From Muribaculaceae bacterium (GTDB taxonomy: Bacteria; Bacteroidota; Bacteroidia; Bacteroidales; Muribaculaceae), in the NCBI GenBank assembly GCA_017619255.1, contig JAFZSS010000213.1, forward strand, positions 1 to 11,303: a stretch of 11,303 bases of DNA, written 5' to 3'. Shown piece after piece: positions 2,965 through 11,185 of this stretch (within the stretch, counting starts at the first letter, position 1; every line of letters begins with the position of its first letter). A program made the position numbers and the translations under genes. The notes under the pieces are model-generated. The model saw only the letters and a program-made list of their open reading frames with translations. It was not told the DNA's origin and ran no database searches.

Positions 2965-2994
2965 TGACCTGCAACCATATTGAATTTGGAGCCT

Positions 2995-4233
2995 ATGAAA
3001 TTAAAGTGCATCATATTAAGTGTTGTGGCCAGCCTTTCCATGGCAGCGTTTTCACAACCCACACAACAGGAAACCGAGTGGGAATGGTATCTCGGTGAAG
3101 TGGTGAACGATGTGTTTGTTGGTCGAAACTATTTTGAATATTATTATATGCCGAGCGCTGCCGACATGGAGCAGCAACGCAGCAAGGGAGAGGTGTCCTA
3201 TTTCCTGAATTCTCCTGCTGGATTAAACAGCAAGAAGGTGCGTGATATGATCGACCGCTTGATGGCCAGCTATGACGATATCAAGGTCGTTGGCGATTGG
3301 CACATGACCAATACTACCTATTGGAAAGAATTCCGTTATGACAAGAACAAATTTCGTTTCAGTGTCAAGCGTAAGGCGCTTGACGATGGCACCTACTATG
3401 TGAGCGTGACCGAGACAGCCGGTTACTATAAATCCCTTGGGAAAACCAGCAGTACCAAGGCCAAGGAGAAAAGTAAAGCCAAGGAATCTTCGTCGGCTAA
3501 GCCCGCCAAACGCAATGCTCGTGACCGCAAGCCGGTGACACAGGAGGATGTTGACGCCGCCGATGTTGACGCCTCCTTGTTAATAGATGACACCGAGGAT
3601 TCCGCTGTCAAAACAACGGCCGTGAGCGAGCGAGAGCGCAGAGCTGCCGCTCGCAAGCACGAGCAGGAGCGTAAGCAGGAGGAACGCCTGGCCAAGCGTC
3701 GTGCCCGTGAGGAGTCGCTTGCTCAGGAAAAAGCCAACAAGGAAGCCGAGAAGCAGCGCAAGGCTGAGGAGAAGAAGCAGAAAGAGGAAGAAAAACGCTT
3801 GAAGCAGGAAGAGCGTCGCCGCCTGCGTGACCAAGAGCGCCGCGATAAGGAGACTGCGCGCAAGCAAGCCGCTGCGCCTAAACCTGTCGAAAGCAAATAC
3901 CACTATAGCGATGTGGCCTTGTGGTTGAGTGAGAAATATGACTTTACCCAGACCACTGGTGATTCGAGGTCTTGCACGATGTATTCCACAGCTGTAAAGG
4001 ATGTGGAAATGGCAAAACTCGCCATCAAGAACGCGCTTAAGGGCAGCAATGCCCGCATGACAGTGCCTTGGCGTGTCAACAGCGAAACCCAGGAGATAGA
4101 GACGGGTTACACTGTAGATGGGCATGTGCTGGTGTTCGCCATCGGTAAGAATGACGATAGCAACATCACCTTGACGGTAATTGAGGTCTCCGGTGAGGAG
4201 CTTGAGGAATTCAAGCGATCGGTGGGGAATTAG
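2995..4233 (+). CDS. Secreted protein of unknown function: two small domains joined by a long charged helix
   Basis: I do not recognise this 412-residue protein. I start it at the ATG at 2995 rather than the in-frame TTG at 2980, because the ATG is followed at once by a good signal peptide (MKLKCIILSVVASLSMAAFS/Q, cleavage near 20). Residues about 25-145 form an N-terminal alpha/beta domain. Residues 150-205 are low-complexity, Lys/Ser-rich and then acidic (a DVDAADVDASLLIDD stretch). Residues 211-291 are almost wholly Arg, Lys, Glu, Gln and Ala, predicting a long single charged helix or coiled coil. Residues 298-412 form a second alpha/beta domain. Both domains end in a similar beta-hairpin-like pattern (FRFSVKRKALDDGTYYVSVTE against HVLVFAIGKNDDSNITLTVIE), possibly a distant repeat. 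No lipobox or membrane segment is visible, so it should be periplasmic or loosely envelope-associated. A spanning or scaffolding role is speculation. Confidence 0.85.
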   Translation: MKLKCIILSVVASLSMAAFSQPTQQETEWEWYLGEVVNDVFVGRNYFEYYYMPSAADMEQQRSKGEVSYFLNSPAGLNSKKVRDMIDRLMASYDDIKVVGDWHMTNTTYWKEFRYDKNKFRFSVKRKALDDGTYYVSVTETAGYYKSLGKTSSTKAKEKSKAKESSSAKPAKRNARDRKPVTQEDVDAADVDASLLIDDTEDSAVKTTAVSERERRAAARKHEQERKQEERLAKRRAREESLAQEKANKEAEKQRKAEEKKQKEEEKRLKQEERRRLRDQERRDKETARKQAAAPKPVESKYHYSDVALWLSEKYDFTQTTGDSRSCTMYSTAVKDVEMAKLAIKNALKGSNARMTVPWRVNSETQEIETGYTVDGHVLVFAIGKNDDSNITLTVIEVSGEELEEFKRSVGN

Positions 4234-7308: not shown

Positions 7309-8772
7309 ATGTCAACACTCATGATTTTACAGCTCTGCATTGTGCTTGCAGCGTTGTGGCTGGGCTCCCGATACGGCAGTCTGGCGTTAGGAGCCATCTC
7401 GGGTATTGGCCTCGCCATTCTCGTGTTTGGCTTCGGAATGAAACCGGGCACACCGCCCACCGATGTGATTTACATCATCATTGCCGCCGTCACCTGCGCC
7501 GGTATCATGCAGGCCTCGGGCGGTATGGATTGGCTCATTCAGTTGGCCGAGAAGATGCTGCGTAAGCATCCTGACCGCATCACCTTTCTCGCTCCCTTGT
7601 GCACCTTCTTCCTGACGGTGCTCGTTGGCACGGGCCATGTGGTTTACACACTGATGCCCATCATCTGTGATATCGCCATAAAGAAGGGCATCCGTCCTGA
7701 GCGTCCTTGCGGTATCGCCAGCATCGCGTCACAGATTGGTATCACTTGTTCACCCATCGCCGCCGCTGTGGTTGCCTTTATTACCATTTCGGGAGCCAAT
7801 GGTTACAATGTGTCTATTCCGCAAGTGCTCATGGTGACGATTCCTGCTTGTCTGTTAGGTATCATCATTGCTTCGATTGCCTCCTACAAGCGTGGCAAGG
7901 ATCTGGACAAGGATCCCGAGTTCCAGAAGAAAATCGCCGATCCCGCACAGCGTGAATATATCTACGGCAGCACCGCCACCACCCTTGACAAGAAGATTGC
8001 CCCCGAGAGCAAACGCGCGGTGTATATTTTCTTCGGAGCCCTGCTGATCATCGTATTCTTTGCCATCTTCCAGGACCTGTTGCCCGCCTATGACGGCGTG
8101 AAGGCCATAAAAGATGCTCCAGAAGTGAAACTTTTGGGGTCACATGTGACAATAACTGCCGAACAGCTGGCGAAACTGGGTGTCAACCATGAGGGCGTGA
8201 CCGAAACGATCACCAGCCCCTTGAAAATGAATATCGTCATCCAGATTGTGATGATTACTGCGGCGGCCTTGATGATTATCTTCTGCAAGGCGTCGCCCAA
8301 GAAGGCCATCGCGGGTCCCGTTTGGCAGAGCGGTATGGTGGCTGTGGTCGCCATCTATGGTATCGCGTGGCTGGCTGACACTTATTTTGCCAACTACCTG
8401 CCGCAGATTCAGGAGATGCTATCGGGCATGGTAGAGAAGTATCCGTGGTCGATTGCCTTTGCCTTCTTCCTCGTGTCGGTGCTCGTCAACTCTCAGGGAG
8501 CTGTGGTCGTTGCCATGTTGCCGTTGGCTTACAAGTTGGGCATTGACGGCTGGATTCTCTTGGGTGTGCTCCCGTCGGTTTACGGCTACTTCTTCATCCC
8601 CAACTACCCGTCGGATATTGCCACCGTGAACTTCGACAGAACAGGCACTACAGTCATAGGCAAGTACCTGTTGAACCACTCGTTCATGATGCCTGGCTTA
8701 GTGCACACCATCGTTGCCTGTGTTGCCGGTTACCTCATCGCCTTCCTCTACCACTCCATGGGCTGGATCTAA
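7309..8772 (+). CDS. dcuB: Anaerobic C4-dicarboxylate transporter, DcuA/DcuB family
   Basis: This 487-residue polytopic inner-membrane protein exchanges or takes up C4-dicarboxylates (fumarate, succinate, malate, aspartate) in anaerobic metabolism. Family hallmarks are clear: an N-terminal helix with GSRYGSLALGAISG (19-32), GMKPGTPPTDV (43-53), QASGGMDWLIQLAEKMLR (68-85), VGTGHVVYTLMPI (106-118), RPERPCGIASIASQIG (129-144) and the C-terminal GTTVIGKYLLNHSFMMPGL. The GTGHVVYT segment resembles E. coli DcuB more than DcuA, hence the symbol; function as DcuA cannot be excluded. It is about 40 residues longer than E. coli DcuB, largely through a hydrophilic insert near 258-305. The last 17 codons are the source of two copied fragments further downstream (9909-9959 and 11096-11146). 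It is probably cotranscribed with the porin gene. Confidence 0.93.
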   Translation: MSTLMILQLCIVLAALWLGSRYGSLALGAISGIGLAILVFGFGMKPGTPPTDVIYIIIAAVTCAGIMQASGGMDWLIQLAEKMLRKHPDRITFLAPLCTFFLTVLVGTGHVVYTLMPIICDIAIKKGIRPERPCGIASIASQIGITCSPIAAAVVAFITISGANGYNVSIPQVLMVTIPACLLGIIIASIASYKRGKDLDKDPEFQKKIADPAQREYIYGSTATTLDKKIAPESKRAVYIFFGALLIIVFFAIFQDLLPAYDGVKAIKDAPEVKLLGSHVTITAEQLAKLGVNHEGVTETITSPLKMNIVIQIVMITAAALMIIFCKASPKKAIAGPVWQSGMVAVVAIYGIAWLADTYFANYLPQIQEMLSGMVEKYPWSIAFAFFLVSVLVNSQGAVVVAMLPLAYKLGIDGWILLGVLPSVYGYFFIPNYPSDIATVNFDRTGTTVIGKYLLNHSFMMPGLVHTIVACVAGYLIAFLYHSMGWI

Positions 8773-8784
8773 CTCATGATATCA

Positions 8785-8816
8785 CCTCGCCTCAATGGTG
8801 AGTCGTTGAGGCGAGG
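8785..8816 (+). terminator. Perfect 11-bp hairpin between dcuB and the first dockerin-FGE gene
   Basis: CCTCGCCTCAA (8785-8795) and TTGAGGCGAGG (8806-8816) pair perfectly around a 10-base loop. Only a weak T stretch (ATAGTTT) follows, so it may be a leaky terminator, an RNA-processing or stability element, or an attenuator before the next gene. It begins 13 bases after the dcuB stop. An identical stem and loop occurs at 9972-10003. Confidence 0.55.
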
Positions 8817-8845
8817 ATAGTTTAACCTTATAATACAGAAGCGAT

Positions 8846-9868
8846 ATGAAACACAGATCTGTAATTCTTAGCCTATTTGCGCTCCTGTTGGCTTTGACTT
8901 GTTCATTCAATGCTGTTGCATCATCAACGACGATGCGTGGCGATGTGACCGGAAACAACGAGGTTGACATCAGCGATGTAACGGCCTTGATTGGTTATCT
9001 GCTCAATGGTGACGGCTCGTCGCTGAATCTCGCTAATGCCGATTGCACACTGAACGGCGAAATCGACATCAGCGATGTGACGGCCTTGATCGGTTACCTG
9101 CTCAACGGCACCTGGCCCGATGGACCCGGAGTGCAAACCTTTACCGTGAATGGTGTTACATTCAAGATGATTAAGGTCGAGGGCGGCACCTTCACCATGG
9201 GTGCTACACCCGAACAAGGCACCGAAGCCAGGGATAACGAGAAACCGGCTCACCAGGTGACCTTGACCAAGGATTACTTCATCGGTCAGACCGAGGTGAC
9301 TCAAGCCTTGTGGTTGGCCGTAATGGGCAGCAACCCCAGTTACTACATCGGCGAGAATGGTTATGGCTATGATTTGATGCGCCCTGTGGAAAAAGTCTCC
9401 TGGCTCGATTGTAAAGTGTTTATCACCAAGTTGAACGAGATGACAGGCAAGACCTTCCGCCTGCCTACCGAGGCCGAATGGGAGTTTGCAGCGCGCGGCG
9501 GCAACAATGGCCATGGTTACAAGTACTCAGGTAGCAACAATCTCGCCGAAGTCGCTTGGTACTGGTATTCCATCCCGTCTCAAACCTCGCATACAGTGGG
9601 CTTTGGTACTCAAACAGTGGCAACAAAGGCTCCCAACGAGTTGGGCCTCTATGACATGAGTGGCAATGTAGATGAATGGTGCGAGGATTGGTACGAACTT
9701 TACAGCAGTGAAGCACAGACCAATCCCACAGGACCGGCAACAGGTTATTTCCATGTTGTTCATGGTGGCACTTGGGCCAGCGAAGCCACCGTTTGCCGTG
9801 TCTCACATAGGGGAGGTAACTATCCTGACACTTATAATTCAAGCCTGGGCCTGCGACTGGCCATGTAG
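8846..9868 (+). CDS. Secreted dockerin plus FGE-sulfatase-fold protein, copy 1
   Basis: This 340-residue protein has a Sec signal peptide (cleavage near NAVA/S, residue 26). A dockerin-like domain follows at 31-88, with two calcium-loop repeats (DVTGNNEVDISD at 33-44 and DCTLNGEIDISD at 66-77), each followed by VTALIGYLLNG. An FGE-sulfatase (SUMF1) domain occupies about 98-340: GGTFTMG (113-119), TEVTQALWLAVMGSNPS, RLPTEAEWEFAARGG (205-219), GLYDMSGNVDEWCEDW and a C-terminal GGTW...CR...GLRLAM. In true formylglycine-generating enzymes two cysteines flank this last motif; here the first is Ser312 and only Cys317 remains. Sulfatase activation is therefore unlikely, and binding through the C-type-lectin-like fold is more plausible. 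The dockerin suggests attachment to a cohesin partner, none of which is in the window. No TAnnTTTG box precedes it; it may be read from the dcuB transcript. Confidence 0.9.
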   Translation: MKHRSVILSLFALLLALTCSFNAVASSTTMRGDVTGNNEVDISDVTALIGYLLNGDGSSLNLANADCTLNGEIDISDVTALIGYLLNGTWPDGPGVQTFTVNGVTFKMIKVEGGTFTMGATPEQGTEARDNEKPAHQVTLTKDYFIGQTEVTQALWLAVMGSNPSYYIGENGYGYDLMRPVEKVSWLDCKVFITKLNEMTGKTFRLPTEAEWEFAARGGNNGHGYKYSGSNNLAEVAWYWYSIPSQTSHTVGFGTQTVATKAPNELGLYDMSGNVDEWCEDWYELYSSEAQTNPTGPATGYFHVVHGGTWASEATVCRVSHRGGNYPDTYNSSLGLRLAM

Positions 9869-9908
9869 TTCGAAGAGCAACGATTGAGCAAAGCCATGCG
9901 AGCGATTA

Positions 9909-9959
9909 ATCGCCGGCAGGCTCATTACATCTTTCTACCACAGCATGGGCTGGATCTAA
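9909..9959 (+). pseudogene. Fragment of dcuB 3' end, copy 1
   Basis: In one frame these 17 codons read IAGRLITSFYHSMGWI and stop, matching the last 16 residues of the dcuB product (VAGYLIAFLYHSMGWI) at 11 of 16 positions, with the stop codon at the same place. It has no start codon in frame and lies out of frame with the preceding gene, so it is a non-coding remnant. It marks the end of tandem unit 1. Confidence 0.85.
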
Positions 9960-9971
9960 CCCAAGATATCG

Positions 9972-10003
9972 CCTCGCCTCAATGGTGAGTCGTTGAGGCG
10001 AGG
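9972..10003 (+). terminator. Perfect 11-bp hairpin before the second dockerin-FGE gene
   Basis: Stem CCTCGCCTCAA/TTGAGGCGAGG with loop TGGTGAGTCG is identical to the hairpin at 8785-8816, while flanking bases have changed (CATGATATCA against CAAGATATCG). It is followed by ATTGTTT, again a weak T stretch. Preservation of stem and loop between units hints at a working RNA element. Confidence 0.55.
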
Positions 10004-10032
10004 ATTGTTTAACCTTATAATACAGAAGCGAT

Positions 10033-11055
10033 ATGAAACACAGATCTGTAATTTTTAGATTATTTGCGCTCCTGTTGGCTATGACTTGTTCATTCAATGC
10101 CGTTGCAGCATCAACGACGGTGCGTGGCGATGTGACCGGAAACAACCAGGTTGACATCAGCGATGTAACGGCTTTGATCGGTTATCTGCTCAATGGAGAT
10201 GGCTCGTCGCTGAATCTCGCTAATGCCGATTGCACGCTGAACGGCGAAATCGACATCAGCGATGTGACGGCCTTGATCGGTTACCTGCTCAACGGCACCT
10301 GGCCCGATGGCCCCGGAGTGCAAACCTTCACTGTGAATGGCGTTACATTCAAGATGATTAAGGTCGAGGGCGGCACTTTCACCATGGGCGCTACACCTGA
10401 ACAAGGCAGCGATCCCAGGGATGATGAGAAACCAGCCCATCAGGTGACCTTGACCGAGGATTTTTACATCGGTGAGACCGAGGTGACTCAAGCCCTGTGG
10501 CTGGCTGTGATGGGCAGTAACCCCAGTTACTTTGTCGGCGAGAATGGTTATGGCGATGATTTGATGCGCCCTGTGGATTTGGTCTCCTGGAACCATTGTC
10601 AAGTGTTTATCACCAAGTTGAACGAGATGACAGGCAAGACCTTCCGCCTGCCCACCGAGGCCGAATGGGAGTTTGCAGCGCGTGGCGGCAACAAGAGCCT
10701 AGGTTACAAGTACGCAGGTAGCAACAATCTCGCCGAAGTCGCTTGGTACTGGTATTCCCTCCCGACACAAACCCCGAACACAGTGGGCTATGGTACCCAT
10801 ACGGTGGCCACCAAGGCTCCCAACGAATTGGGCCTTTATGACATGAGCGGCAATGTAACTGAGTGGTGCCAGGATTGGTACAGCCTCTACAGCAGTGAAC
10901 CACAGACCAATCCCACAGGACCGGCAACGGGTACTTACCTTGTTGTTCATGGTGGCGCTTGGGGCAACCAAGCCACTAATTGCCGTGTCTCATATAGGGG
11001 AGGCAACTATCCTGACACTAAGTATTCAAGTCTGGGCCTGCGACTGGCCATGTAG
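10033..11055 (+). CDS. Secreted dockerin plus FGE-sulfatase-fold protein, copy 2
   Basis: This paralogue is also 340 residues and by my count is identical to copy 1 at 293 positions (86%). The signal peptide (1-26) and dockerin (31-96) are nearly unchanged; the dockerin differs only at residue 39 (Glu to Gln). The FGE-fold domain differs at about 41 positions, clustered in segments 126-148, 167-190, 221-228, 243-256, 276-290 and 301-331, which are loop-like in this fold. Framework motifs such as RLPTEAEWEFAARGG and GLRLAM are untouched. At the position of the first catalytic cysteine of real FGEs it has Asn312, and it keeps Cys317, so it too should lack sulfatase-activating activity. In the last 41 codons there are 11 replacements against 3 silent changes. 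The likely role is secreted ligand binding with a different specificity from copy 1. Confidence 0.9.
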   Translation: MKHRSVIFRLFALLLAMTCSFNAVAASTTVRGDVTGNNQVDISDVTALIGYLLNGDGSSLNLANADCTLNGEIDISDVTALIGYLLNGTWPDGPGVQTFTVNGVTFKMIKVEGGTFTMGATPEQGSDPRDDEKPAHQVTLTEDFYIGETEVTQALWLAVMGSNPSYFVGENGYGDDLMRPVDLVSWNHCQVFITKLNEMTGKTFRLPTEAEWEFAARGGNKSLGYKYAGSNNLAEVAWYWYSLPTQTPNTVGYGTHTVATKAPNELGLYDMSGNVTEWCQDWYSLYSSEPQTNPTGPATGTYLVVHGGAWGNQATNCRVSYRGGNYPDTKYSSLGLRLAM

Positions 11056-11095
11056 TTTGAAGAACAGCGATTGAGCAAAGCCGTGCGAGGGATTC

Positions 11096-11146
11096 ATCGC
11101 CGGCAGGCTCATTACATCTTTCTACCACTCCATGGGCTGGGTATAA
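11096..11146 (+). pseudogene. Fragment of dcuB 3' end, copy 2
   Basis: These 17 codons read IAGRLITSFYHSMGWV and stop, the same remnant as at 9909-9959 and exactly 1187 bases later. It differs from the first remnant by TCC for AGC at the Ser codon (as in dcuB itself) and by Val for the final Ile. It closes the tandem block. Confidence 0.85.
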
Positions 11147-11185
11147 GGCAAGACACATTTTTGAACAATAAACCACTCTATAACC

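Follow-up and report, generated by a model that had tools for sequence, protein, structure and literature searches.

Dockerin-Bearing FGE-Type Proteins in a Muribaculaceae Genome: A Tandem Gene Pair as a Probable Frozen Member of a Proposed Retroelement-Seeded Lectin Family

A Tandem Pair of Dockerin-Bearing Genes

The window analyzed here is a stretch of 11,303 bp that makes up the entire contig JAFZSS010000213.1 of a draft Muribaculaceae genome (assembly GCA_017619255.1, hereafter G000), which amounts to 1.7 Mb and is 57.5% complete. On its forward strand, gene 1 (8846..9868) and its tandem copy, gene 2 (10033..11055), each encode a protein of 340 aa with a signal-like N-terminus, a dockerin, and a C-type-lectin domain of the formylglycine-generating enzyme (FGE) type, and the two proteins are 86% identical. 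The type I dockerin (PF00404, codons 32-86) lies at 8939..9103 in gene 1 (39.6 bits) and at 10126..10290 in gene 2 (39.3 bits), both above the curated cut-off of 22.9 bits. The FGE-sulfatase/C-type-lectin domain (PF03781, codons 107-339) occupies 9164..9862 (162 bits) and 10351..11049 (156 bits). Pfam recognizes these two domains only, with no NTPase, kinase, or death-like domain, and the signal-like N-terminus predicts that both proteins are secreted. By sequence and by fold, the nearest solved structure to the FGE domain is TvpA (the fold model of the pair's domain being taken for overall fold alone), and the domain is putatively one of ligand binding rather than catalysis. The last 41 codons (300-340; 9743..9865 and 10930..11052), here called the tail, are a gap-free homologue of the variable repeat found in targets of diversity-generating retroelements (DGRs) of the same genus. 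A first-pass annotation, made from the DNA letters, had placed the variable stretch at a C-terminal motif of a C-type-lectin fold, and in this family it does lie at the C-terminal GG.W..C..R..G.R motif.

Gene 1 and gene 2 are in-paralogues from the tandem duplication of a 1187-bp unit. The two arms (8747..9966 and 9934..11153, both forward) align without gaps at 90.4% identity over 1220 bp, in a register of 1187. The first arm starts inside the last codons of an upstream DcuA/DcuB-type transporter gene (7309-8772), and remnants of the end of that gene are found 3' of both gene copies. A further remnant of this transporter-gene end follows gene 2 at 11099-11153, on the basis of which the duplicated unit may once have existed in more copies. 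Elsewhere in the window, 2980-4233 encodes a charged, Lys/Glu-rich protein of 417 aa with no Pfam match.

Selection and Constraint within the Pair

Comparison of the two copies gives 1 replacement and 6 silent changes in codons 31-96, 0 and 6 in codons 97-125, 30 and 20 in codons 126-299, and 11 and 3 in codons 300-340. All the counts in the first-pass annotation, which had set near-identical dockerins against a tail rich in replacements and had remarked that variation reaches upstream to codon 126, are thereby reproduced. The sharp break in the pair is at codon 126, not at the start of the tail: replaced and silent codons number 1 and 12 in codons 31-125 against 41 and 23 in codons 126-340 (Fisher p 0.0003), and the tail (11/3) shows no significant contrast with the remaining FGE domain (30/20, p 0.34). 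On this last comparison, unusual selection on the pair's tail alone was rejected. As originally reported, the third base is the same in 10 of the 11 replaced tail codons; codon 330 is the exception. This is only mildly special, because it is already the same in 18 of the 30 replaced codons of 126-299.

The ratio dN/dS is 0.02 in codons 31-125, 0.32 in codons 126-299, and 1.64 in codons 300-340. The last value has codon bootstrap limits of 0.40-7.0, so a dN/dS above 1 is not established for the pair's tail. Gene conversion, although possible, is unneeded for the near-identical dockerins. Constraint suffices: dS in codons 31-96 (0.133) is below that of codons 126-299 (0.288) but not outside the values for other regions, which run from 0.095 to 0.383, and replacement change is far lower still. 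It could be argued that ordinary positive selection after the duplication explains the tails and that retroelements were never involved in the family. For the pair itself, the ratio of 1.64 in the tail (with its wide limits) and of 0.32 in codons 126-299 is compatible with this, as is the failure to find a reverse transcriptase or template in the 57.5% complete G000; the family-wide evidence below makes it an unlikely account.

Retroelements in the Genus and in Related Records

DGRs are usually recognized by their reverse transcriptase. Our genus sample comprised 61 genomes for profile searches with PF00078 and PF00963, and 101 genomes for searches with the enzyme and template of one element described below (G005). 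PF00078 matched in 23 of the 61 genomes, G000 being counted among the 61. Because motifs were read at 30 loci and template pairs sought in 17 regions out of 42 PF00078 matches, the DGR count given here for the genus is a minimum. In 8 of the 17 regions there are repeat pairs whose mismatches lie on template adenines, and two of these eight DGRs, those of genomes G005 and G010, have FGE-domain proteins as targets. Their variable repeats (a single one in G005, two in G010) cover the stretch homologous to codons 300-340 with no gap, their reverse transcriptases carry the motif IGNLTSQ, and the mismatches fall at template adenines in 18 of 19 cases in G005 and in 16 of 21 and 17 of 21 cases in G010. 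At the G005 locus, an FGE target of 340 aa is accompanied by an HRDC accessory protein and the reverse transcriptase, with an overlapping template. The same genome has a remote variable repeat (L168, G005:C118, contig positions 19911-20032) in a 555-aa frame with kinase motifs (the kinase being recognized by motif only) and an FGE domain; it agrees with the G005 template at every non-adenine site from base 26 to base 122.

The genus has six further DGRs (L097-L102). Five of them have long frames that represent very large proteins of another kind, and these five may be phage-borne; for the sixth, L097, the contig is short.

A reverse transcriptase of the G005 type occurs in 2 of the 101 genus genomes (E 1e-40), and the unmutated template word in 3 of 101, namely the two intact elements and G122. 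In G122, the template is cut short at 57 bases (L288, G122:C51, 13513-13569), with an FGE gene about 370 bases away; the 14.5-kb contig yielded no SQ-type reverse transcriptase, and this element is probably a dead DGR. A Porphyromonadaceae metagenome-assembled genome holds a further intact DGR with an FGE target (L205, CAMWUY010000059.1, 6529-8334), with IGNLTSQ and RYMDD motifs and 15 of 16 mismatches on template adenines. Among named records, the nearest relatives are metagenome-assembled genomes of Bacteroidales, many of them derived from the rumen.

The first-pass annotation had proposed looking in the genome itself for a DGR reverse transcriptase and for a near-copy of the tail, and both searches of the 57.5% complete G000 came back empty. 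Neither PF00078 nor the G005 enzyme detected a reverse transcriptase, the unmutated template word was not found, and the only near-copy of 9700-9868 was gene 2, the remaining matches being of 15-21 bases. The absence of machinery from any one draft genome is weak evidence, but its restriction to 2 of 101 genomes is strong evidence. Viral contigs yielded neither the template word (0 matches) nor the DGR enzyme. FGE relatives occur on five viral contigs, and the four of these that were scanned showed neither an SQ-type reverse transcriptase nor a repeat recognizable as a template. One viral contig stretch (L309, 1919-3060) carries a long array of diverged direct repeats in a register of about 108 bp.

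A Third-Base Footprint across the Family

A tail copied from an AAY template should retain C or T at the third base of its variable codons, even where the amino acid leaves a choice. As a measure of this footprint, we counted the C/T endings of four-fold-degenerate codons at 14 template columns and took the expectation from the bodies of the same genes. Among 58 distinct tails collected by protein similarity only, 196 of 230 such codons end in C or T against 63.5% expected (z 7.3), compared with 299 of 482 at the other tail columns, 322 of 524 in the frame, and 325 of 526 at the 25 most variable body columns. In the same tails, codons for Lys, Gln, Glu, Met, and Trp make up 50 of 812 codons at template columns against 372 of 1434 variable body codons. 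Under looser criteria, 150 protein-selected genes from the genus and other records, aligned by profile and checked to hold none of the loci later selected by template, give 471 of 613 C/T endings against 64.3% expected, and no excess at the other tail columns (746 of 1189). The 95 genes from genus genomes within this set contribute 322 of 396, and the excess is weaker in the named records alone (134 of 187 vs. 1099 of 1754). A gene bootstrap puts the excess over the body at 0.071-0.154, and a repeat with 145 genes after slightly different merging at 0.069-0.154. Kinship is not taken into account in the z values or in the counts of genes and pairs, and the genes are not independent of one another. 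A first footprint pass included some loci that had been retrieved with template DNA and is not used as support; the set of 58 tails and the 43-gene set described next leave such loci out.

A third set of 43 genes was reached from 69 genes by way of 54 of fixed length, with like tails then merged (a further 54 fetched loci gave no separate tail, either because the motif could not be fitted or because the gene was already counted). The dockerin-bearing genes of this set show 110 of 133 C/T endings, where the dockerin label was assigned by phmmer with the window dockerin as query and misses some members (L036 is labelled as lacking one, yet is above the Pfam cut-off). The 21 genes from genomes without any PF00078 match show 85 of 100.

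At the family level, therefore, the footprint of an AAY template is present, although it is partial, at 77-85% and not 100%. Selection on amino acids cannot produce a lean toward C/T that is confined to template columns, and for this reason the idea that no retroelement had a part in the family's origin is refuted. The family reading is stronger than a reader of the sequence alone could have known, and descent from a diversified family holds.

Scrambled and Frozen Orthologues

The full set of 208 genes contains 30 pairs with a body divergence of 14% or less, and their tails fall into 15 scrambled pairs, 11 frozen pairs, and 4 in between. The window pair belongs to the four, with 8 of 28 first and second bases changed at template columns and a body divergence of 11%. 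When the scrambled pairs are pooled, several of which have a gene in common, the first and second bases at template columns differ at 279 of 418 positions and the third bases of the same codons at 27 of 209, compared with 156 of 1119 at other tail sites and 415 of 4161 in the body. Third bases that are kept while the first two are scrambled argue once more against ordinary selection as the source of the variation.

The clearest case is a dockerin-FGE gene (L041/L043/L184) that is flanked by the same genes in G035, G002, and RUG12169, the last genome being covered as 12.8-kb stretches only. Its dockerin is matched by Dockerin_1 over half its length (25.8 bits). The three orthologues differ at 8-12 of 291 body positions (about 3-4%) and at 13-20 of 28 positions in template columns. 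Between G035 and G002 the figure for this gene is 20 of 28 (L041/L043), against 0 of 28 for a control FGE orthologue in the same two genomes (L241/L248). Neither the G005-type enzyme nor the SQ motif was found in G002 or G035.

Such orthologues might be artefacts of metagenome assembly, in which the body of one gene has been joined to the tail of another. Nearly all the genomes are indeed drafts, and the named ones are mostly metagenome-assembled. However, the clearest case lies in the same gene neighbourhood in three assemblies from different projects, the mismatches sit on the first two bases of template codons with the third bases spared, and the control orthologue is unchanged, which leaves artefact a very improbable explanation. 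Alternatively, tails could have been exchanged as cassettes among paralogues by recombination, with no reverse transcription. Paralogues are plentiful (up to 23 FGE paralogues per genome at E 1e-60, not all of them shown to be former targets), and scrambled tails somewhat exceed the body at non-template sites too (10-11 of 89 vs. 8-12 of 291 in the clearest case). On the other hand, the frame codons and third bases are largely common to the scrambled orthologues, and the single case tested revealed no donor: the tail of the G002 gene (L043) has no template or donor in its own draft genome, where at E 0.01 it matches only itself, and no sampled gene agrees with it at more than 5 of the 14 variable residues. 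We regard cassette exchange as quite improbable.

The Pair Compared with a Relative's Template

The template used as reference for the pair is that of the G005 element, that is, of a relative and not of the pair's own species. Against this reference, the two tails differ at 9 of 33 adenine positions and at 8 of 90 positions elsewhere (p 0.016). The first-pass annotation had ascribed most of the changes to mutation at the adenines of ancestral AAY codons; the differences are enriched there, but eight lie off the adenines. The excess probably reflects faster change in pocket residues.

A rival reading makes the pair a current remote target, served by a DGR that lies outside the incomplete assembly. 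The enrichment at template adenines, the remote variable repeat on G005:C118, and the 57.5% completeness of G000 would all be compatible with it. Nevertheless, both copies have the same non-AAY codon at 305, 323, 324, 329, 332, and 333, six of the 14 template-type columns, with silent differences only between the copies at 324 and 333. Retrohoming would have erased these shared codons, which argues that none took place after the duplication. Moreover, the sister variable repeats of the G010 element show 21 differences, all at adenine positions (0 of 91 elsewhere), unlike the pair with its eight non-adenine differences. The shared derived codons largely refute a current target, an option that we consider very unlikely, and the pair is probably not under retroelement diversification at present. 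The original proposal, that the pair is or descends from a diversified receptor family, thus stands in its second half, through the same-genus DGRs, the footprint, and the scrambled orthologues, and is not supported in its first. Ordinary substitution fits the differences within the pair, and positive selection at the pocket may have contributed.

Dockerins and Cohesins

The incomplete G000 contains 78 matches to gene 1, most of them over the dockerin alone. A first look at genus relatives gave up to 209 dockerin candidates per genome. The cohesin profile PF00963 matches at E 0.001 in 33 of the 61 genus genomes, 28 of these above the cut-off, and has no match in the incomplete G000. Such profile matches possibly mark a putative, undescribed cohesin-dockerin system of the Bacteroidales.

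A Proposed History of the Family

We favour, with a probability of roughly three in four, the reading that these proteins form a DGR-seeded family of FGE/C-type-lectin receptors, partly coupled to dockerins, whose diversifying machinery is mostly gone, and that the window pair is a tandem-duplicated, frozen member of it. The binding tail of the family would have been seeded by mutagenic retrohoming from AAY-rich templates, as indicated by the third-base footprint, the intact DGRs in relatives, and the scrambled orthologues. Most lineages would later have been without the machinery, or would carry it transiently, with a largely frozen and expanded repertoire of tails as the result. Because the reverse transcriptase is present in only 2 of 101 genomes, repeated loss, transience, or absence due to draft assembly must be assumed.

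The pair itself would have inherited a single, already diversified tail before the duplication, and ordinary substitution would have followed, with strong purifying selection acting on the dockerin and a binding face that was presumably free, or favoured, to change. The footprint is not detectable in the pair alone (9 of 13 C/T endings vs. 90 of 138 in the body), and its descent from a DGR target therefore rests on the family.

A bolder picture, which we offer tentatively as possible rather than probable, is that of a rumen Bacteroidales genus in which hit-and-run DGRs rewrite the tails of dockerin-lectins in trans and then vanish. The tails would be kept as a fixed, vertically inherited, germline-like repertoire in cohesin-dockerin surface complexes.

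Comparison with Known Systems

The domain shares PF03781 and its fold with the formylglycine-generating enzymes. In the human enzyme, two active-site cysteines hold the copper; the first (C336, aligned through a C336S chain) corresponds to S or N at codon 312 of the pair, and codon 317 is C, leaving one of the two. Both enzyme cysteines occur together in 2 of 197 family members. With cellulosomal dockerin proteins, the pair has the type I dockerin in common, and an FGE-type domain here takes the place of the hydrolase.

Orphan DGR targets are already known from two earlier reports. In Treponema denticola, according to the first (PMC4891356), isolates have two to seven DGR targets each, and in isolates without the reverse transcriptase and template FGE targets persist. 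The second (PMC10907252) describes DGR-linked sensors of multicellular bacteria with FGE-type variable domains, incomplete loci, and targets in trans. Compared with the TvpA system (PMC4891356; structure, PDB 2y3c), many members here bear dockerins, the family is spread genus-wide, the number of FGE paralogues per genome is higher (up to 23 at E 1e-60), and no renewed diversification has affected the window pair since it was duplicated. The kinase-motif/FGE target of G005 is alike in architecture to the sensors of multicellular bacteria (PMC10907252); in the window proteins, Pfam finds none of the NTPase, kinase, and death-like domains. A literature search that paired retroelements with dockerins or cellulosomes found no link, its match being unrelated by title and abstract.

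As far as can be told, three things are new: targets that bear dockerins, the spread of the family across a genus, and the use of third bases to test for machinery that has vanished. Through their synonymous third-base footprint, former DGR targets can be spotted once the machinery is gone. Our observations further suggest that a large family named in Pfam for formylglycine-generating enzymes is made up of lectins seeded by retroelements, and that random diversity of binding sites can be plugged into the modular surface assemblies of rumen bacteria.
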